A stretch of 64,000 nucleotides of DNA from an uncultured Pelagibacteraceae bacterium (GCA_902565935.1 CACFGT010000002.1:1-64000); one strand, 5' to 3'. Positions 22,441-32,692 are shown, counted from the first letter of the stretch. The notes: generated by a model from the letters alone, not told the origin. Made by a program: numbers and translations.

Positions 22441-24648
22441 ATGTTCAAGAAAATATCATTTTTAATTATAACATTAATACTAATAAATATAGTTAATTTA
22501 GTTTTAGCAGATATTGTCCCAATTAAAAAACCTTCACAATCTAAAGAAGAAAAAGAAAAAAAATTAATGGTTGATGTCCTAAAACCTCTTCCAAAACCAG
22601 TTATTAAAGATCAAATTAAAAAAATAGATAAAAAAATTGAACCAGAAATAACTAAGGTTGCTGGGATGATTTTACCCAAAAAAAAACCTGTAATAGCTGG
22701 AAAGAAATCTTTAGAAACAGTTAAAAAATCAAAATTTTACAGTAAAAAAGATTTTATAATAGCAAAAAAAGCTTTTTCAGAAATGAAAAAAGCAAAATGG
22801 ACCGATGCATTAAAAACTGCGAAAAGAGCTAGAGATAAATCCATATATAATTTCATCCAATGGAGGCATCTTTTAACAAAAGGAAACAGGGCTTCTTTTT
22901 ACGATTACAAAACATTTATTGATAAAAATGAAAATTTTCCAAGAATTGGCAGGGTTAAATATTTGGCCGAACACAAATTATCTACTGATAAAATCTCACC
23001 AAATAAGATAATTGATTGGTTTGGATCAAACGAACCACTAAGTGGTTTTGGTAAAATGATTTTAGGAGAGAGTTTAATTTTAAAAGATAATCGGCAAGAA
23101 GGTGTAAGATTAATTAAAGAAGGTTGGGTTACTGCTGAATTAAATAAATCACAACTACGATTTTATAGAAAAAAATTTCGAAAATATTTAAATGCAAATG
23201 ATTATATTAAAAGAGCCGATTACTTAGCATGGAATAATAAATATTGGGATTTAAGAAGACTTTTGAGATATTTACCAAAAGAGTATGAGCTATTATACAA
23301 CGCTCGACAGCTTTTAATGAGTAGGTCTTATGGTGTTGATAATGCAATATCAAAAGTACCTGATAAATTTAAAAATGATGCTGGACTAAATTATGATCGA
23401 CTAAAGTGGAGAAGAAAAAGAGGTCGAGTAGATAGTTCAGTTGAAATTTTATTAAAAATTAAAAATACAGAAGATTATTTAGTAAGACCTGATAAATGGT
23501 GGATAGAAAGAGAAATTATTTCTAGATCTTTAATTTATAAAAATAAATATGAGTTAGCTTACAAAATAGCGAGCAATCATGCTTTAACTCAAGGCCCAAA
23601 ATATGCAGAGGCAGAGTGGATGAGTGGCTGGATAGCACTGAGTTTTTTAGATGATCCATTATTAGCCAAAGATCATTTTGAAAACTTTTACAATAATGTA
23701 GGTTATCCAATAAGTGTTTCTCGAGGTGCCTATTGGCTAGGCAGAAGTTATAAAAAATTAGGAAATAATGATTTATCTTTAAAATGGTTTCAAGAAGCTG
23801 CAAATTATTTAACAACTTATTATGGTCAATTGGCATTTATGGAATTAAACGGTGACAAAAAATTTGAATTATCTAAAGATCAAGAAGTTAAAAAAGAATA
23901 CAGAGATTATTTTTTTAAACAGGAATTAGTAAAAATTATTTATCTTTTGGATGAACTAAATGAAGACAAATATGCTAAACATGTATTAAGATATTTGGCA
24001 AATGATGATATCAAAAACGGAAGTGAAATATTAGCTGCAGAATTAGCTACAAATATAGAAAGATTTGATTTTGCAATTCAAATCGCTAAAATTGCTTCAT
24101 ATGAAAAAAGATTTCATAATAAATATAATTATCCAATTATAAGCACACCAAATTATATTAACGGGCGAAAAATTCCTGAATCAGCTTTTATATTATCAAT
24201 AATTAGACAAGAGAGTGAATTTGACTTAAAAGCAAATAGCCATGCTGGTGCAAAAGGTTTAATGCAATTAATGCCTTACACTGCAAAATTAGTAGCTAAA
24301 CAAGCAAAATTACCTTACTCAAAATCAAGACTAACAACTGATCCTGAATACAATATCAATCTCGGATCTCATTATATTGCAGGTTTAATACTTGAATATG
24401 ATGGAGCATATCCTTTTGCAATTGCAGCCTATAACGCTGGACCCAAAAGAGTAAGATATTGGAAAAGAATAAATAAAGACCCACAAAAAAAACAAACAAA
24501 CTATGTAGACTGGATAGAATTAATAAAATTTAGAGAAACTAGAAATTATGTTCAAAGAGTTTTAGAAAATTATAATGTTTATAGATATATTTTAGAACAA
24601 AAACCAATTTCTATGAAAAATTATTTTAAAGATAACCCTCTATTTTAG
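22441..24648 (+). CDS. slt: Soluble lytic murein transglycosylase (SLT domain, N-terminal signal and alpha-superhelix)
   Basis: ESAFILSIIRQESEFDLKANSHAGAKGLMQLMPYTAK, AIAAYNAGPKRVRYW. Confidence 0.92.
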   Translation: MFKKISFLIITLILINIVNLVLADIVPIKKPSQSKEEKEKKLMVDVLKPLPKPVIKDQIKKIDKKIEPEITKVAGMILPKKKPVIAGKKSLETVKKSKFYSKKDFIIAKKAFSEMKKAKWTDALKTAKRARDKSIYNFIQWRHLLTKGNRASFYDYKTFIDKNENFPRIGRVKYLAEHKLSTDKISPNKIIDWFGSNEPLSGFGKMILGESLILKDNRQEGVRLIKEGWVTAELNKSQLRFYRKKFRKYLNANDYIKRADYLAWNNKYWDLRRLLRYLPKEYELLYNARQLLMSRSYGVDNAISKVPDKFKNDAGLNYDRLKWRRKRGRVDSSVEILLKIKNTEDYLVRPDKWWIEREIISRSLIYKNKYELAYKIASNHALTQGPKYAEAEWMSGWIALSFLDDPLLAKDHFENFYNNVGYPISVSRGAYWLGRSYKKLGNNDLSLKWFQEAANYLTTYYGQLAFMELNGDKKFELSKDQEVKKEYRDYFFKQELVKIIYLLDELNEDKYAKHVLRYLANDDIKNGSEILAAELATNIERFDFAIQIAKIASYEKRFHNKYNYPIISTPNYINGRKIPESAFILSIIRQESEFDLKANSHAGAKGLMQLMPYTAKLVAKQAKLPYSKSRLTTDPEYNINLGSHYIAGLILEYDGAYPFAIAAYNAGPKRVRYWKRINKDPQKKQTNYVDWIELIKFRETRNYVQRVLENYNVYRYILEQKPISMKNYFKDNPLF

Positions 24649-24653
24649 GATAA

Positions 24654-24745
24654 TGGCGGAAGAGGAGGGATTCGAACCCTCGGTACAAGTTTCCTCGCAC
24701 GGTCATTTAGCAAACGACTGGTTTAAGCCTCTCACCCACTCTTCC
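24654..24745 (-). tRNA. tRNA-Ser (anticodon GCU), CCA encoded
   Basis: Minus strand GGAAGAGTGGGTGAGAGGCTTAAACCAGTCGTTTGCTAAATGACCGTGCGAGGAAACTTGTACCGAGGGTTCGAATCCCTCCTCTTCCGCCA: class II with long variable arm, acceptor GGAAGAG/CTCTTCC, T-loop GGTTCGAATCC. Confidence 0.96.
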
Positions 24746-24760
24746 AAAGTATAAATTTAA

Positions 24761-26341
24761 CTAATATTCTACAATTTTAGATAAATCTATAAAACTTTTA
24801 TTAACTTTTAAAAACGTATTTTTATTAGTGAATTTTGAGTAACAAGTCAATTTTTTATCATTATTACTTTGAATTGCTCTATTTACCAAAATTGCATAAT
24901 CAAATCTTTCATTAAGATCAACAATATCAAAATTTTTAATATCGTATTTTCTTAAATAATATTTCACATTATTTGGATTTGCTCCACAAACTGAAATTTT
25001 TACAAATCTTTTATTATCAATTTTATATGAAAATTTTTTAATCAATTCTTTTAATGATGTGCCCCAGTAATCATTTTCAAAAGAGTCTTTTTTCAAAAAG
25101 ATATCATTAAAGACATTAAGATAAGTATAATGATATGGTGAAATAATAAAAAATTTTATTAAGAAAATAATAAAAAAAGGTATTAAAAAGACAATCAAAA
25201 CTTTATTATGAATTTTGTCTCGATTTTCTAATAAATAATGTAAATATATAGCGGGAAAAAAATTAAAAATAGGAATTAAATATAAGAAATATCTTAAACC
25301 ATCATGAATTTTTAATTTTAAAAAGATTGCAATAAGCGCTGGTAATATTAATAAAATTAAAGAAATTGTAATTTTATAATTAAAATCCTTAATATTTAAA
25401 GAAGTTGCTAAATTCTTATAAAAAATAAAGAAAAATAAGAAACCAAACAAAAAGATTGAAGGAAATTTAAATAAAACATTAGTAAATAAATAATTCCATG
25501 GAGTAAATTTTGTCTCATAAAAAATACCCTTAAAATAACTTACTTGGACTCCTTGAGAAATATCCTTTAATGACTCAAAAAAAATTTTAAAAGGCTCAAC
25601 TACAATATTAGAATGAGTATTAGGCCAACAAAGAACTAGTAAAATATAAGAACTGAAAATTATTATAGTAATATGATAAATAAAATCTTTAAAGATTATT
25701 TTTTTTGTAAACTTTTTGAAAATTAAAATTTCTAATAATAAAAAAAAAATTATAGGTATCAAAGTGCCCAAAAAAATTACTCTGACACCTGTGCCTAGAC
25801 CAACAAAAATTCCAATTTTTAATGAAATATTTTTTCTTAAATTAACATCCTCAGTTTTTAAATATTTAACTACATAATATAATATCCAAAAGTGTGAGGT
25901 CGCTATAATTGTATCCTTCGGATTGATACTTAAGTGACCAAAAATAATTGGTGAAAAAATAGATATTAAAAAAAAATATTTTGCAATTTCTGATCCAAAA
26001 AAAAATTTAACAATTTTTTTTAGCCCAATTAATCCAGCAAGTCCAACCATAAAATTTAACAAATAAAAACTCTCATAATAAAAATTTCTTGGAAAGATTG
26101 AGCTAAATAAAGCTGAAATAGTATCGTACAGACCTGGATAGTATCTTAAATGTAAAATATCATAATAATCATATCTACCTAAACTAAATAAATATTTTAA
26201 TCTCCTCTCACCATTTTCTATGTGAAAGACTTGGTCATAAGACAGACCAAGAGAAAAAATACAATATAGTGAGAATAATATTCCTGATATGATTAAAAAA
26301 TAATTAACAAATTTATTTTTATTTATTCTCAATATCAGCAA
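24761..26341 (-). CDS. GT-C fold membrane glycosyltransferase (ArnT/PMT-like, GT39-related)
   Basis: 526 aa polytopic; LSYDQVFHIENGERR first loop with acidic residue, GHLSINPKDTIIATSHFW motif. Confidence 0.65.
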   Translation of the reverse strand: MLILRINKNKFVNYFLIISGILFSLYCIFSLGLSYDQVFHIENGERRLKYLFSLGRYDYYDILHLRYYPGLYDTISALFSSIFPRNFYYESFYLLNFMVGLAGLIGLKKIVKFFFGSEIAKYFFLISIFSPIIFGHLSINPKDTIIATSHFWILYYVVKYLKTEDVNLRKNISLKIGIFVGLGTGVRVIFLGTLIPIIFFLLLEILIFKKFTKKIIFKDFIYHITIIIFSSYILLVLCWPNTHSNIVVEPFKIFFESLKDISQGVQVSYFKGIFYETKFTPWNYLFTNVLFKFPSIFLFGFLFFFIFYKNLATSLNIKDFNYKITISLILLILPALIAIFLKLKIHDGLRYFLYLIPIFNFFPAIYLHYLLENRDKIHNKVLIVFLIPFFIIFLIKFFIISPYHYTYLNVFNDIFLKKDSFENDYWGTSLKELIKKFSYKIDNKRFVKISVCGANPNNVKYYLRKYDIKNFDIVDLNERFDYAILVNRAIQSNNDKKLTCYSKFTNKNTFLKVNKSFIDLSKIVEY

Positions 26342-26612
26342 ACTCTTTCTGAATTTTCTTATAAAGTTTATATAATAAAATTTTATCTTCTTTATTCAAA
26401 ATATTCTCTTTTTCTAAACCATTTTTAATTTCGTTTCTGACTTTATTTTTTAAATCATTTCTGAACTTACTTTTATCTAAGGATAGTAAAGTATCAATTT
26501 TCTCAATTCTTTCAGCTAATAATAGGTTAAAAACTACATTAATAATGATTATAATTGAGAGCGTAATAGCAGCAAGTTTTATAAAAAAAATTTTTAAATT
26601 ATTTTTTTCCAT
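26319..26612 (-). CDS. Unassigned small one-TM protein with charged C-terminal helix
   Basis: 97 aa: LAAITLSIIIIINVVFNLLLA TM followed by Lys/Glu-rich segment; translationally coupled on both sides. Confidence 0.55.
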   Translation of the reverse strand: MEKNNLKIFFIKLAAITLSIIIIINVVFNLLLAERIEKIDTLLSLDKSKFRNDLKNKVRNEIKNGLEKENILNKEDKILLYKLYKKIQKEFADIENK

Positions 26613-27348
26613 AATATTTTTTATACCATTCTAAAGTTAAGAATAAAGCTTGATATTGAGGTTTATTAATAATTTTATTTAAATTACTCGATTTTAGAAT
26701 TTTGTATAGTTTCTTTAGGTTTATTTTATTTGACTTAATTTCTTTATAAATAAATTTATCATTATAAGAAAGTAATTTAAAAATATCTTTATTTAGATCT
26801 TTTACAAAAGTAAAATTTTTTACTTGATTCAAATTAAAATTTTTTTTCTTTTTTTGATAAAGGTGTTTAAAAATAGATGGAAAAATTCGTCTATTATTCA
26901 GATCATAAGGACCAAAAATACTATCAATATTTAATAATCTTAATTTACAATTATTTTCTTTACTCAATATATAAACTTTAAGCATTTCTTTACTCAATGC
27001 ATAAAAATTCTTATTTTTTTTATTTTCAATCATATCTTTTGAAAGAAATAAAAAAAGTTTAATTCTAAGTTTATTTGATATTTTTAAGATTGATAAAGGT
27101 AAATAAAAATTTGCCTCTAAAATTTTTGAAAAATTACTTGAATAAGAATTATCATTATTAGCAGCAAAATTCAAAATTGTATCTATCTTATTTTTTTTAA
27201 CAATTTTTTCTAAATCTTTTTCAAATAAAAATTTTTTATTTTTTTTAAACGTCTTATTAAAATAAAAAATTTTTAATTTATCTTTAAAATCATATGTAAA
27301 ATTTTTAGCAATGAATGAGTTTTTTCCAATTAAAAGAATATTATTCAC
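26599..27348 (-). CDS. NAD(P)-dependent epimerase/reductase (SDR, RmlD-like)
   Basis: N-terminal ILLIGKNSFIAKNFTYDF; NFAANNDNSYSSNF; YALSKEMLKVYI (YxxxK); LRLLNIDSIFGPYD. Confidence 0.7.
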   Translation of the reverse strand: MNNILLIGKNSFIAKNFTYDFKDKLKIFYFNKTFKKNKKFLFEKDLEKIVKKNKIDTILNFAANNDNSYSSNFSKILEANFYLPLSILKISNKLRIKLFLFLSKDMIENKKNKNFYALSKEMLKVYILSKENNCKLRLLNIDSIFGPYDLNNRRIFPSIFKHLYQKKKKNFNLNQVKNFTFVKDLNKDIFKLLSYNDKFIYKEIKSNKINLKKLYKILKSSNLNKIINKPQYQALFLTLEWYKKYYGKK

Positions 27349-28607
27349 TAGAAATTATACGAAAATGAGTCAAAGTTATTATTTAAAAAATATTTATAAT
27401 TAAATCTATCAACTATATGAAGCATAGGTAAATGAAAAACTAATTTACCACCATTTAATAAAAATCTTTTTTCTTGGTCAATTACTTCCTTACGAAAAGA
27501 CCAAATCAAAACTAAAAGATATTTAGGTTTCATTTTCCTCATTTTTTGTTTTGAGATAATTTTGATATTGCTTCCTGGCGTATAACGATTGAATTTAAAA
27601 GGATTTGCATCACATATGTATTTAAGTTTTTTTTCATCAATTTTACAATGATTTAAAACTATATTTCCTTTAGTTGAGGCCCCATATCCAATGACATTAT
27701 TTTTATTTTTCTCTAAAAATAAATTCAATATTTTTTTAATATTATCGACTCTTTTATTGAAGTTCACAAAGCTTATATCGTTTATTTGTTCTTCAATTTT
27801 TTTTTGATCATTTATTTTTTTAATTTTTGCTTTATATTTTGAGTTTTTTTTAGCACAAATAATTTCTATACTCCCACCATTAATATCATTCAAGTTAAAG
27901 TCTAAAATTTTTAAACCATTTTTTTTTATAACATTTTCAAATGTGTTTAATGTATAGTATGTTACATGTTCATGACAAATTTGATCATAAGTTAAATTTT
28001 TTAAAAGTGATGGAAAATAAGATAATTCTAAAACCCACCTTCCATTCTTACTTAATAAATTATTGATATCTTTGCAAAAAGAGTTTGGATCTTCTATGTC
28101 GTAAAACATTGCAAAAGATGTAATTAATTCAAATTTAATATTATCATATTTTTTCTCAATTTTTTCTTTTTTAAAATAATCAACAATTAAATTAATTTTT
28201 TTAGAATGATATTTCTTAAATTTTTCAGCTGATGGATCAATTCCATATAAATTTAAATTCTTAAAACTTTGAAAAAAATTCAAAAAAGTCCCATCATTAC
28301 AACCAATATCTAAAATATTACAATTTTTTTTACTCAAATCTTTTTTTAATGATAAATATTTTTTTTTCATATGGTTAATCATTAGTGGACTGAGCGATGT
28401 TCTGTATCCATAATTCAATCCATACATTTGATTTAATTTAGGTAATGTTTTAAATTGAATTAATTCACATTTTTTACATATATATAAATCAAGCGAGTAA
28501 TTTCTTAAGTTACTCATCTTTTTTTTATAAAAATGACTGCTTATTGGTTGTTTACCAATATTAATTATTTTTTTTAGAGATCTAGATTTACAATTTTTAC
28601 AAGACAT
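27348..28607 (-). CDS. NDP-sugar C-methyltransferase (TylC3-like, with N-terminal zinc-binding domain)
   Basis: SCKNCKSRSLKKIINIGKQPISSHF...LYICKKCELIQ; CNILDIGCNDGTFLNFF; HEHVTYYTLNTFENVIKKNGLKI; VIGYGASTKGNIVLNHC. Confidence 0.82.
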   Translation of the reverse strand: MSCKNCKSRSLKKIINIGKQPISSHFYKKKMSNLRNYSLDLYICKKCELIQFKTLPKLNQMYGLNYGYRTSLSPLMINHMKKKYLSLKKDLSKKNCNILDIGCNDGTFLNFFQSFKNLNLYGIDPSAEKFKKYHSKKINLIVDYFKKEKIEKKYDNIKFELITSFAMFYDIEDPNSFCKDINNLLSKNGRWVLELSYFPSLLKNLTYDQICHEHVTYYTLNTFENVIKKNGLKILDFNLNDINGGSIEIICAKKNSKYKAKIKKINDQKKIEEQINDISFVNFNKRVDNIKKILNLFLEKNKNNVIGYGASTKGNIVLNHCKIDEKKLKYICDANPFKFNRYTPGSNIKIISKQKMRKMKPKYLLVLIWSFRKEVIDQEKRFLLNGGKLVFHLPMLHIVDRFNYKYFLNNNFDSFSYNF

Positions 28608-28635
28608 TTATAATCATTAGTAATTATTAATTTTT

Positions 28636-29556
28636 ATGATATCAATAGTTATTCCCTGCTATAACGAAGAAACAATTATTGATGATTTTATTAAAGAACT
28701 TCATCAAAATATATCTAAAATAAGTGAAAGTTTTGAAGTAATTTTTATTGATAATAAAAGTAATGATGAAACAGTCAATAAATTAAAAGAAAAAATAAAT
28801 ATTTTTGAAAATGCAAAAATTATTTGTCTTACGAACTATTTTGGGAAAGAATCAGCTATACTTTCCGGCATAGATAACTCAAAAGGTAACTCTTGCATCA
28901 TAATGGATCCTGATTTAGAGGATCCACCCTCTTTAATCAAAGACATGATTAATGAGTCAAAAAAAGGTTTTAATGTTGTTTATGCAGTTAGAAAAAGTAT
29001 TGAAACTACTTTAATTAAGAAATTTATGAGATCAATTTTTTATTTTTTATATAAAAATCTAGTTGATAAAAATTTTTTGATACCCGCGAATACAGGAGAT
29101 TTTAGGTTGATAGATAAAAAAATAATTGATCAATTAAAAAGTATGAGAGAAAGAACAAGATTTTTAAGAGGTCTTGTTTCTTTTATTGGTGCAAAGCAAA
29201 AATCAATAGAATTTGATAGGCCTTTTAGAAAAAAAGGAAAATCTAAATCTAATATTTTTTTTCTGATAAGATATGGCTTTGATGCATTACTTTCGTCTAC
29301 TGCAGGACCGGCTAATCTTATAACTAAATTTGGAATTTTTTCATTGGCTACGATTTTTATCTTTTTAATTTTTATTTTAATTAATAAATTTTTTTTTAAT
29401 CCCTATGAGGGTTTTTCTTTTACAATTATCTTAATACTTTTTTTATTTTCATTAAATACAATAATGATTGGTATTATTGGAGAATATATTACTCGTATAT
29501 ACAATGAAGTAAAACAAAGACCAAATTACATAATTGAAGAGATTATCGAACGTTAA
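28636..29556 (+). CDS. Family 2 glycosyltransferase, GtrB/ArnC/DPM-like polyprenyl-phosphate sugar transferase
   Basis: ISIVIPCYNEETIIDDF, DPDLEDPPSLI, GDFRLIDKK, RTRFLRGLVSFIGAKQKSIEFDRPFRKKGKSK, two C-terminal TMs. Confidence 0.85.
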   Translation: MISIVIPCYNEETIIDDFIKELHQNISKISESFEVIFIDNKSNDETVNKLKEKINIFENAKIICLTNYFGKESAILSGIDNSKGNSCIIMDPDLEDPPSLIKDMINESKKGFNVVYAVRKSIETTLIKKFMRSIFYFLYKNLVDKNFLIPANTGDFRLIDKKIIDQLKSMRERTRFLRGLVSFIGAKQKSIEFDRPFRKKGKSKSNIFFLIRYGFDALLSSTAGPANLITKFGIFSLATIFIFLIFILINKFFFNPYEGFSFTIILILFLFSLNTIMIGIIGEYITRIYNEVKQRPNYIIEEIIER

Positions 29557-30610
29557 AATAATTTTCAATTTGCGAATGGGTAAATTTTTTAATATCTTTT
29601 TTTTCTAGATAATATTTATACCATAAAGCCGTTAAATAAATACTTTTTTCAAAATCATACAATGGAAACCATTTTAGAAATTTTTTAATCTTCTGAGAAT
29701 TTAATAATAATAATCTTGACTCTATAAATTTTATTTTTCGCACTTTGATTTTGTATTTTTTACCAATAACATTTGAAAATTTCTTAGTTAGATTCAAAAC
29801 ATTAATATATTTTTTTTTAAATGGTCCAACGTTATAAGGTCCGCTGTATCTTACTTTATTTTTATAATGAAAAATTGGAATAAGAAGATAGCCGTAACAT
29901 ACATCAAGGACATGTTGCCAAGGCCTGATATGTTTTGGGTTTCTTAAACTGATAACTTTTGTTTTTGAATTTTTAATAATGTCAGGGATTATTCTGTATT
30001 TACTAAAGTCACCACCACCAATTACATTGCCAGCTCTTACGCTACTCAAACCAAAATGTAATTTTTTTTTTGATTTTAGTAAATATGAATTAATTAATTG
30101 TTCGCACATCGCTTTTGAAGAGGAATACACTTCAACACCACCCAGTGTAGAGTTTTCGTTGAAAGCTTTTTTTTTATTTGTATTTAAATAACATTTATCA
30201 CTAGTTGCAATTACAACAGATTTAACTGATTTTTGGATTATGCTGCTTTTAATTAGATTATTTGTACCTAAAACATTTGTTTCTAATGTTTCGAGTGGTT
30301 TTTTTTGACTTTCAATCACTAAACTTTGTGCTGCTAAATGAAAAATAATATGTGGTCTAAAAGTATTAATTTTTTTTGATAAAGTCTTATAGTCAACTAT
30401 ATCATTAAAAAAAGATTCTTTTAGAAACTTTTTTTTAAATATTCTAAAAAAAATAAAATTATCATTTTTGGATAAAGATAAAGAATATCCTTTTACTTTG
30501 GCGCCAAAAAAACTTAAAATCAAAAAAAGCCACATACCCTTAAATCCTGTATGACCTGTGATAAATATTCTTTTATTTTTATAAAAATTTTTTAATTGCT
30601 TTAAACCCAT
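29543..30610 (-). CDS. rfbG: CDP-glucose 4,6-dehydratase
   Basis: RIFITGHTGFKGMWLFLILSFFGAKVKGYSL, HLAAQSLVIESQKKPLETLETNVLGT, VYSSSKAMCEQL, RPWQHVLDVCYGYLLI. Confidence 0.9.
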   Translation of the reverse strand: MGLKQLKNFYKNKRIFITGHTGFKGMWLFLILSFFGAKVKGYSLSLSKNDNFIFFRIFKKKFLKESFFNDIVDYKTLSKKINTFRPHIIFHLAAQSLVIESQKKPLETLETNVLGTNNLIKSSIIQKSVKSVVIATSDKCYLNTNKKKAFNENSTLGGVEVYSSSKAMCEQLINSYLLKSKKKLHFGLSSVRAGNVIGGGDFSKYRIIPDIIKNSKTKVISLRNPKHIRPWQHVLDVCYGYLLIPIFHYKNKVRYSGPYNVGPFKKKYINVLNLTKKFSNVIGKKYKIKVRKIKFIESRLLLLNSQKIKKFLKWFPLYDFEKSIYLTALWYKYYLEKKDIKKFTHSQIENYFNVR

Positions 30611-31371
30611 GGTAGCTTTTTATCTTTAAATTTCTCAAGAAATTTTCTATCTCTTATTGTATCCATACACTTCCAAAATCCAGTATGTTTAAATGCTGCT
30701 AGTTGTTTTTTGTTAGCAATTTTCTCCATTGGTTTAGCTTCCCATCTTGTTTGATCATTTTTTATAAATTTAAAAATTTTATTACTTAATACAAAGAAGC
30801 CGCCATTGATAAAAATTTCTTTTATATCTGGTTTTTCAATAAATTTTTTAACAACATTTCTTTTTTTGAAATACACTACACCAAATCTTTCCTGAGGAAC
30901 TTGTATTTTTACAGCTGTTACAGTTGCTAACTTTTTGTTCATTAAATGAAATTTTGTTAAACTTGCAATATTTATATTAGATAAGCCATCGCCATAAGTC
31001 ATGTGAAAATATTTATCTTCTTCTACATATTTTCTAATTCTCTTTATTCTTCCACCCGTAAGTGATTTTTTTCCAGTATCAACTATTCTAATTGATAAAT
31101 CTCCATTCTTAATAAATGTATTATTTTTTTTATTAATTAAGATGTTTTTTCTAAATTTCTTTTTAAAGTGATTTCTAATTACTTCTCCTTTATAGCCTGT
31201 GCAAATTATAAAATTTGAATATCCAAATCTATGATAAATCTGCATAATATGTTCGATGATAGGTTTGCCGCACACATCGACCATAGGTTTTGGTTTTAAT
31301 TTAGTTAAAGTCCCAAGTCTTGTGCCATATCCACCAGCTAAAATCACTACCTTACAATTATTTTTATTCAT
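30601..31371 (-). CDS. rfbF: Glucose-1-phosphate cytidylyltransferase
   Basis: VVILAGGYGTRLGTLTKLKPKPMVDVCGKPIIEHIMQIY, YGDGLSNINI, NGGFFVLS, RWEAKPMEKIA, GFWKCMDTIRD. Confidence 0.92.
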   Translation of the reverse strand: MNKNNCKVVILAGGYGTRLGTLTKLKPKPMVDVCGKPIIEHIMQIYHRFGYSNFIICTGYKGEVIRNHFKKKFRKNILINKKNNTFIKNGDLSIRIVDTGKKSLTGGRIKRIRKYVEEDKYFHMTYGDGLSNINIASLTKFHLMNKKLATVTAVKIQVPQERFGVVYFKKRNVVKKFIEKPDIKEIFINGGFFVLSNKIFKFIKNDQTRWEAKPMEKIANKKQLAAFKHTGFWKCMDTIRDRKFLEKFKDKKLPWV

Positions 31372-31438
31372 TAAGTTGCTTACTTTTAAAATTCATTATT
31401 TCTTGATATATAAACTATATTGATTTATTCGTTTAAAT

Positions 31439-32692
31439 ATGAAGAAAAAATACTCTATTTTTAGCTTAATTAAAAATTCTTTATCTTACCATGAAAATTG
31501 GGAGAAAGCGTGGAAAGATCCTGAACCAAAAAAAGAATATGAAATTGTAATAATTGGAGGTGGAGGACACGGTCTAGCCACTGCTTATTATTTAGCAAAA
31601 AAACATGATTTAAAAAATATAGCTGTTGTTGAAAAGGGTTGGATCGGTGGAGGTAATACGGGTAGAAACACTACAATAATTAGATCTAATTATTTATGGG
31701 ATGCTAGCGCAGGTCTATATGATCATGCCTTAAAAATTTGGGAAGGACTTTCACAAGAATTAAATTACAATGTAATGTTTAGTCAAAGAGGAGTAATGAA
31801 TCTTGCACACAATCTTCAAGATGTCAGAGATTTAAAAAGAAGAACTCATGCAAATAGATTAAATGGTATTGATGCTGTTTATCTTAATACAGAACAAGTA
31901 AAGAAATTTTGTCCAATAATAAATACATCACCTGATATTCGTTATCCAGTTCTAGGTGGGACTCTTCAAAGAAGAGCTGGTACTGCACGTCACGATGCTG
32001 TTGCATGGGGTTACGCACGAGGAGCTGATGAAATGGGTGTAGATATCATACAAAATTGTGAGGTTAAAGGTATTAAAAGAAATGGTGATAGTATCGAAGG
32101 AATTGAAACTACTAAAGGTTTTATTAAAACTAACAAAATTGGTGTTGTAGCAGCTGGTCATTCAAGTGTAATTGCAAACATGGCAGGTTTAAGATTACCC
32201 TTAGAAAGTAAACCACTTCAAGCTTTAGTTTCAGAACCAGTAAAACCAATTATTGATACTGTTGTTATGTCAAATGCTGTTCACGCTTATGTGAGCCAAT
32301 CAGACAAAGGTGAACTTGTTATTGGTGCTGGTACAGATGATTATGTATCTTATTCACAAAAGGGTAGTCATGACATAGTAGAAGGTACTTTAAATGCTAT
32401 ATTAGAATTATACCCAATATTTAGTAGAATGAGAATGTTAAGACAATGGGGTGGAATTGTTGATATATGTCCTGATGCAAGTCCAATAATAAGTAAAACC
32501 TCTATTAAAGGTTTATATTTTAATTGCGGCTGGGGCACTGGAGGTTTTAAGGCAACACCTGGTTCAGGAGATTTATTTGCACATACAATTGCAAATGATG
32601 AGCCACACAAACTAAACGCTGCATTTAATCTAAATAGATTTGTTAGCGGTGATCTTGTGGATGAACATGGTGCAGCAGCAGTAGCACACTAA
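31439..32692 (+). CDS. soxB: Sarcosine oxidase beta subunit
   Basis: [68 protein letters not shown]. Confidence 0.95.

Follow-up and report, generated by a model that had tools for sequence, protein, structure and literature searches.

A tRNA-Ser-linked sugar-decoration cassette of a Pelagibacteraceae bacterium, probably exchanged among SAR11 lineages by recombination

A compact set of seven genes predicted to build and transfer a single surface sugar lies between a tRNA-Ser gene and soxB in the genome of an uncultured Pelagibacteraceae bacterium (GCA_902565935.1; here G000, 95.8% complete). The cassette resides on contig C2 (CACFGT010000002.1), of which the first 64,000 nucleotides were analysed (the window; all C2 coordinates are window positions). 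The seven intact open reading frames (ORFs) at positions 24761-31371 either overlap their neighbours by 1-23 bp or are separated from them by at most 28 bp. A first block on the minus strand comprises genes for a GT-C glycosyltransferase of 526 residues with a TTG start codon (24761-26341), a 97-residue protein with one transmembrane (TM) segment (26319-26612), an extended short-chain dehydrogenase/reductase (SDR) with a YxxxK motif, probably a 4-ketoreductase (26599-27348), and a sugar C-methyltransferase of the TylC3/TcaB9 type (27348-28607). A second minus-strand block is formed by rfbG, encoding CDP-glucose 4,6-dehydratase (29543-30610), and rfbF, encoding glucose-1-phosphate cytidylyltransferase (30601-31371). 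Between the two blocks lies the plus-strand gene for a GtrB-like polyprenyl-phosphate glycosyltransferase of family GT2 with a C-terminal TM pair (28636-29556), 28 bp from the divergent start of the methyltransferase gene and overlapping the convergent end of rfbG by 14 bp. On the left, the tRNA-Ser(GCU) gene (24654-24745, minus strand), the sole copy identified by ARAGORN in this genome, is located 15 bp beyond the GT-C stop codon, between the GT-C gene and slt, which encodes a soluble lytic transglycosylase (22441-24648, plus strand; PF01464, 3.1e-26). On the right, a 67-bp spacer (31372-31438) leads to soxB (31439-32692, plus strand), where sox stands for sarcosine oxidase (beta subunit; TIGR01373, 712.7 bits). 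The GC content of the cassette is 22.0% compared with 28.4% in the remaining window, in which the lowest value for a stretch of equal length is 25.7%. A promoter scan of the cassette was uninformative (49 sites vs 57.8 expected).

Six of the seven genes, all but that of the small TM protein, are backed by profile, PDB or structure matches. RfbG passes the equivalog cut-off of its family (TIGR02622, 346.7 vs 278.45 bits; PDB 1wvg, 1.9e-64), and RfbF has TIGR02623 as its best match (266.8 bits, cut-off 300.25) and aligns over its full length to PDB 1tzf (6.6e-62). The C-methyltransferase (PF08484, 7.6e-39) possesses the full Methyltransf_13/23/14 architecture, aligns end to end with TcaB9 (PDB 4e2w, 5.7e-38) and MtmC, and retains the E-H and GYGA motifs. 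It thus resembles TylC3, TcaB9 and MtmC (PDB 3ndi, 4e2w, 4rv9) across all three domains; those enzymes, however, act on dTDP-sugars in the context of antibiotics, whereas the coupling of the cassette enzyme to RfbF and RfbG predicts CDP-linked substrates in the context of a surface glycan. The SDR is identified by PF01370 (1.8e-9), and the GT2 by phrog_841 (1.9e-71) and PDB 5ekp (1.5e-59). The GT-C remains below the Pfam cut-off (PMT_2, 23.3 vs 26.1 bits); an AlphaFold2 model based on an alignment of 25 relatives (pLDDT 85.9, pTM 0.88) was matched by Foldseek to ArnT, ALG9, PglB and STT3 at a probability of 1.00, and the modelled structure confirms the GT-C assignment despite the sub-threshold profile. 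A conserved aspartate, Asp36, is located in an SYDQ motif (SWDE in relatives) of the first periplasmic loop.

Based on these families, RfbF produces CDP-glucose, RfbG converts it to CDP-4-keto-6-deoxyglucose, and the C-methyltransferase belongs to a family whose members methylate C3, the position adjacent to the 4-keto group. Reduction at C4 by the SDR would then yield a CDP-linked 3-C-methyl-6-deoxyhexose, a product predicted from family knowledge. This sugar is likely to be loaded onto undecaprenyl phosphate by the GtrB-like GT2 and taken to the periplasm by a flippase, where the GT-C, perhaps with the one-TM protein as its dedicated small partner, would attach it to a surface acceptor such as the O-chain, lipid A/core or a protein. 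A first-pass annotation of the window had read the same seven families and the same logic of activation, tailoring, lipid loading and transfer from the sequence, and the profile, PDB and structure matches agree with both. It had further likened the cassette to phage-type gtrABC or arn systems, which does not hold in this form. As in gtrABC and other multi-component transmembrane glycosylation systems (PMC8035078), a GT-A polyprenyl-phosphate-sugar synthase is paired with a GT-C transferase, and the sugar may likewise be destined for a surface polymer on the far side of the membrane. The cassette differs in its own nucleotide-sugar genes, in the additional one-TM protein whose gene overlaps that of the GT-C, and in the lack of a GtrA-family flippase, and the most similar phage GT2 is less than 37% identical to that of the cassette. 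Similarly, an ArnC-like GT2 and a GT-C of the ArnT fold are shared with the Arn pathway, which modifies lipid A with L-Ara4N; however, the GT2 scores far below the ArnC cut-off (NF007986, 139.8 vs 529 bits), the cassette genes include no ArnA, ArnB or ArnD, and Arn proceeds through UDP-sugars instead of CDP-sugars.

The small TM protein appears to be tied to GT-C enzymes. Its family occurs at 22 loci of the genus (E < 1e-9), at 19 of which a GT-C gene is adjacent or separated from it by a single gene; of the remaining three loci, two or more lie at contig ends. Weak profile matches in the genus, inside ORFs of ~950 residues, look like chance and were dropped. Among 289 sampled alphaproteobacterial genomes a good match was obtained in G000 only. 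Where dS, the synonymous divergence, was defined, the ratio of nonsynonymous to synonymous divergence (dN/dS) was 0.07-0.11. The protein is thus a SAR11-specific neighbour of GT-C genes, and it may act as a small GT-C subunit. The two genes form the sole pair beside soxB in G216, AG-453-E13 and AG-470-O10, and they have a second accessory site between grxD (glutaredoxin) and rpsD (ribosomal protein S4), where they are usually arranged tail to tail (L177, L180-L185, L188-L190; genomes G258, G066, G026, G009, G034, G199, G075, G201, G221 and G152).

The distance from slt to soxB was measured in the 131 genomes of the genus that have both genes on one contig. It is 159-183 bp in 111 of them, most keeping ~162 bp, and among these is the closest relative of G000, G003, with a gap of ~160 bp and protein identities of 94% for slt and 98% for soxB. 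Apparent inserts in G165 and G215 turned out to be truncated soxB matches and were counted as empty, leaving 18 genomes with inserts of 0.5-6.8 kb. Reads at contig edges contribute a further 8 occupied sites and 3 empty ones, so that the slot is occupied in 26 of 142 informative genomes and empty in ~82%. The cargo is variable and comprises GT2 and GT1 enzymes, methyltransferases, SDRs/epimerases, UDP-galactopyranose mutase (GLF), GT-C with the small TM protein, glycosyltransferases with tetratricopeptide repeats (TPR), and a nucleotidyltransferase with a thiamine pyrophosphate enzyme and an AsnB-like protein; the exceptions to the glycan types are an ORF of 96 residues in G071 and a small number of multi-TM ORFs of no recognised family. 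Inserts are found on either side of the tRNA. On the slt side, the cargo usually follows closely behind slt or the 3' end of the tRNA; on the soxB side, the class to which G000 belongs, the ancestral tRNA/soxB spacer of ~62 bp found at empty sites has been replaced. The same seven genes are present in only 2 of the 142 genomes, which makes the cassette an accessory element instead of a core one. The first-pass annotation had proposed this comparison, the GC analysis and the structural search as checks and had named the presence of the seven genes in essentially all relatives as a result that would speak against it; no such general presence is seen. Its view of the surroundings as an otherwise core region has to be revised, as the slt/tRNA-Ser/soxB spacer is a hotspot of insertion. 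The literature searched, subscription papers being outside its reach, gave no description of this slot. Two further observations concern slt. An OGT-like TPR-glycosyltransferase gene recurs directly after it, starting few bases past its stop codon (L155-L159, L164, L167, L168, L272, L098, L099). In addition, slt is frameshifted in G063, which has an occupied slot (G063:C11:19597-21772), and contains several internal stops in G206 (G206:C13:21817-24000), either by assembly error or by real decay.

The identical set and order of seven genes was found in G210 (Pelagibacterales SAG-MED39, a single-amplified genome, SAG), AG-893-K09 and AG-453-I04. The relatives are Pelagibacterales SAGs, in line with the SAR11-like cell suggested by the first reading of the sequence, which also proposed that the cassette could set surface serotype and thereby susceptibility to phages or grazers. 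In AG-453-I04 the contig stops within the GT-C gene and slt is followed by a TPR-glycosyltransferase gene; both sides of this slot therefore appear to be filled. In G000 and G210 the tRNA is positioned between slt and the GT-C gene, but in AG-893-K09 its neighbours are rfbF and soxB, and the ancestral spacer is preserved; the cassette and tRNA are therefore circularly permuted between these genomes. The cassettes of G210 and AG-893-K09 are 71.6% and 72.0% identical to that of G000, whereas core identity amounts to 86.1% and 74.3%, respectively; across the carriers, cassette identity is flat at 65-72% while core identity spans 74-86%. Thus, the cassette is old and has not been inherited together with its hosts. 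Synonymous divergence between carriers is near saturation (dS about 0.8-1.9), and the dN/dS of the cassette, where defined, is about 0.05-0.54, demonstrating purifying selection; together with the repetition of the gene order in three other genomes, this rules out a chance assembly. The SDR is the most divergent cassette gene among the carriers (46-62% identity), and the sugar may therefore differ from carrier to carrier.

A possible route of exchange is indicated by the flanking genes. Compared with G003, third-position identity of slt in G000 drops from 0.88 over the first 375 codons to 0.71 in the remainder close to the cassette (Fisher P 1.9e-8), and soxB is 89% identical over its first 210 bp and 94-99% identical beyond. 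A similar decrease in slt occurs between G029 and G056, which carry different cargo (0.955 to 0.798), and a smaller one between G060 and G067 (0.854 to 0.767), while in 17 control pairs of empty sites the fall did not exceed 0.05. Replacement islands that are exchanged through homologous recombination have been described with this pattern of synonymous divergence at their flanks (PMC4033161), and the decrease of slt identity towards the cassette indicates such recombination across the flanking genes. At a probability of roughly 70%, we favour an accessory cassette for surface-glycan decoration that occupies an exchangeable slot and, as the footprint and the discordance between hosts and cassettes suggest, would pass from one SAR11 lineage to another when the conserved genes on either side recombine homologously, with no recombinase of its own involved. 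Several points weigh against this interpretation. Taken singly, the decrease in slt might reflect a recombination tract that has nothing to do with the cassette, and a comparable dip in identity is seen farther out, in soxA. The cassette is without a flippase gene, and GtrA (PF04138), present in 8 of 14 controls, is absent from the 95.8% complete genome. The tyrosine preceding the E-H pair in TcaB9 is a cysteine in the cassette methyltransferase, the PDB search gave no match for the SDR, and the predicted C3 regiochemistry and final identity of the sugar depend on family membership.

The position next to a tRNA raises the question of phage involvement, and in one relative, the SAR11 SAG AG-470-O10, the tRNA-Ser of the slot is in fact split in two within the anticodon-loop region by a prophage of ~37 kb (L196:9532-17449, L275-L277; CACLYO010000008.1). 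The 5' half adjoins a GT-C gene and a tyrosine integrase gene (phrog_1, 2.4e-29), the 3' half, ~37 kb away, adjoins another glycan-type ORF, and phage genes fill the interval. When the two halves are joined at the TTGCTAA core, they give a normally folded tRNA-Ser(GCU), and the prophage bears an intact tRNA-Ser(GCU) of its own. The tRNA is therefore a phage attachment site. By analogy, the prophage, which lies outside the window itself, looks like a case in a SAR11 genome of the tRNA-dependent lysogeny described in mycobacteriophages (PMC10865867). These findings do not establish that the cassette was delivered by a phage. An alternative, comparable to phage gtr serotype conversion, is that the cassette is the relic of, or was carried as cargo by, a temperate phage or another tRNA-targeting element, having been placed at the tRNA by an integrase that was later lost. 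This would be in accordance with the attachment site, with the match of the GT2 to GtrB-like phrog_841 and with the opposite placement of the cassette relative to the tRNA in AG-893-K09, which is expected from a tRNA-cassette-tRNA arrangement or a circular intermediate. However, no integrase, direct repeat or tRNA fragment was found in the G000 cassette or, except for AG-470-O10, in the other occupied slots tested, and a pattern scan of 2.9 million viral contigs revealed no close viral relatives of the GT-C, C-methyltransferase, GT2 or RfbG. In addition, the footprint reaches into slt and soxB, which site-specific integration does not predict. We therefore consider such an origin improbable, and phage genes, which would mark a phage-borne serotype-conversion cassette, are likewise absent from the cassette.

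About equally unlikely is a role of the two glycosyltransferases and the sugar genes in some unrelated pathway or away from the cell surface, such as periplasmic protein glycosylation or the synthesis of a secreted glycolipid. The fold matches of the GT-C do include protein glycosyltransferases (OST/PglB, PMT), but the other cargo of the slot is typical of polysaccharide loci, and the combination of GT2 and GT-C fits multi-component transmembrane glycosylation. Least probable is an ancient locus passed on vertically, with separate losses in most lineages, as the near-saturated dS and the conserved gene order and position that would agree with it are opposed by the discordance with host identity suggested by the four carriers, the different sides of the tRNA, the empty site with intact ancestral spacer in G003, and the other cargo in the same slot of sister genomes.

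With exchange by flank recombination as the preferred reading, the cassette belongs with the flexible glycan islands known from SAR11, as a variant at a different site. The O-chain cluster (OBC or HVR2) is a replacement flexible genomic island between the 23S and 5S rRNA genes (PMC2217521, PMC11898729, PMC4033161), and both loci have in common glycan genes, many alternative contents at one site, a flank footprint in synonymous divergence and a low GC content (22.0% for the cassette, a mean of 23.8% for the O-chain cluster). Like replacement islands in general, the slot holds, in different relatives, gene sets that are unrelated to each other but similar in function, and it has raised divergence at its borders, in the 3' half of slt and at the 5' end of soxB; unlike these, it is not occupied in nearly all strains. 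The O-chain cluster spans 10-90 kb, whereas the slot, usually empty, reaches only about 0.5-6.9 kb, and the path encoded by the cassette is self-contained from activation to transfer. The cassette is not flanked by 23S and 5S genes, as the 5S rRNA gene of G000 is found on contig C31, where it is located beside a nucleotide-sugar SDR gene (G000:C31:313-2460; L004, L280), probably the assembled edge of the genome's own O-chain cluster.

Surface diversity of SAR11 is usually framed around this one large island between rRNA genes. The slot described here is far smaller and in most species vacant. Its decoration pathways, some complete and some partial, appear to be exchanged through recombination around a tRNA that is essential, present in a single copy and also targeted by a prophage. 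Tentatively, the slot might be a second, phage-linked SAR11 glycotype locus apart from the O-chain cluster, at which phages attach to the tRNA while flanking glycan cassettes recombine and change phage adsorption, the one-TM protein being a new dedicated subunit of the SAR11 GT-C class; we regard this wider proposal as possible but doubtful. In any case, the cassette draws attention to a small, as yet uncharacterised protein associated with GT-C enzymes, and it represents a compact unit for asking whether one sugar modification alters phage susceptibility in the most abundant bacteria of the ocean. Another glycan locus of G000 (G000:C9:16300-23700; L169, L170) also lies beside a tRNA gene (C9:21909) and encodes a 565-residue fusion of a cupin and a C-methyltransferase together with a dTDP-glucose 4,6-dehydratase-like protein.

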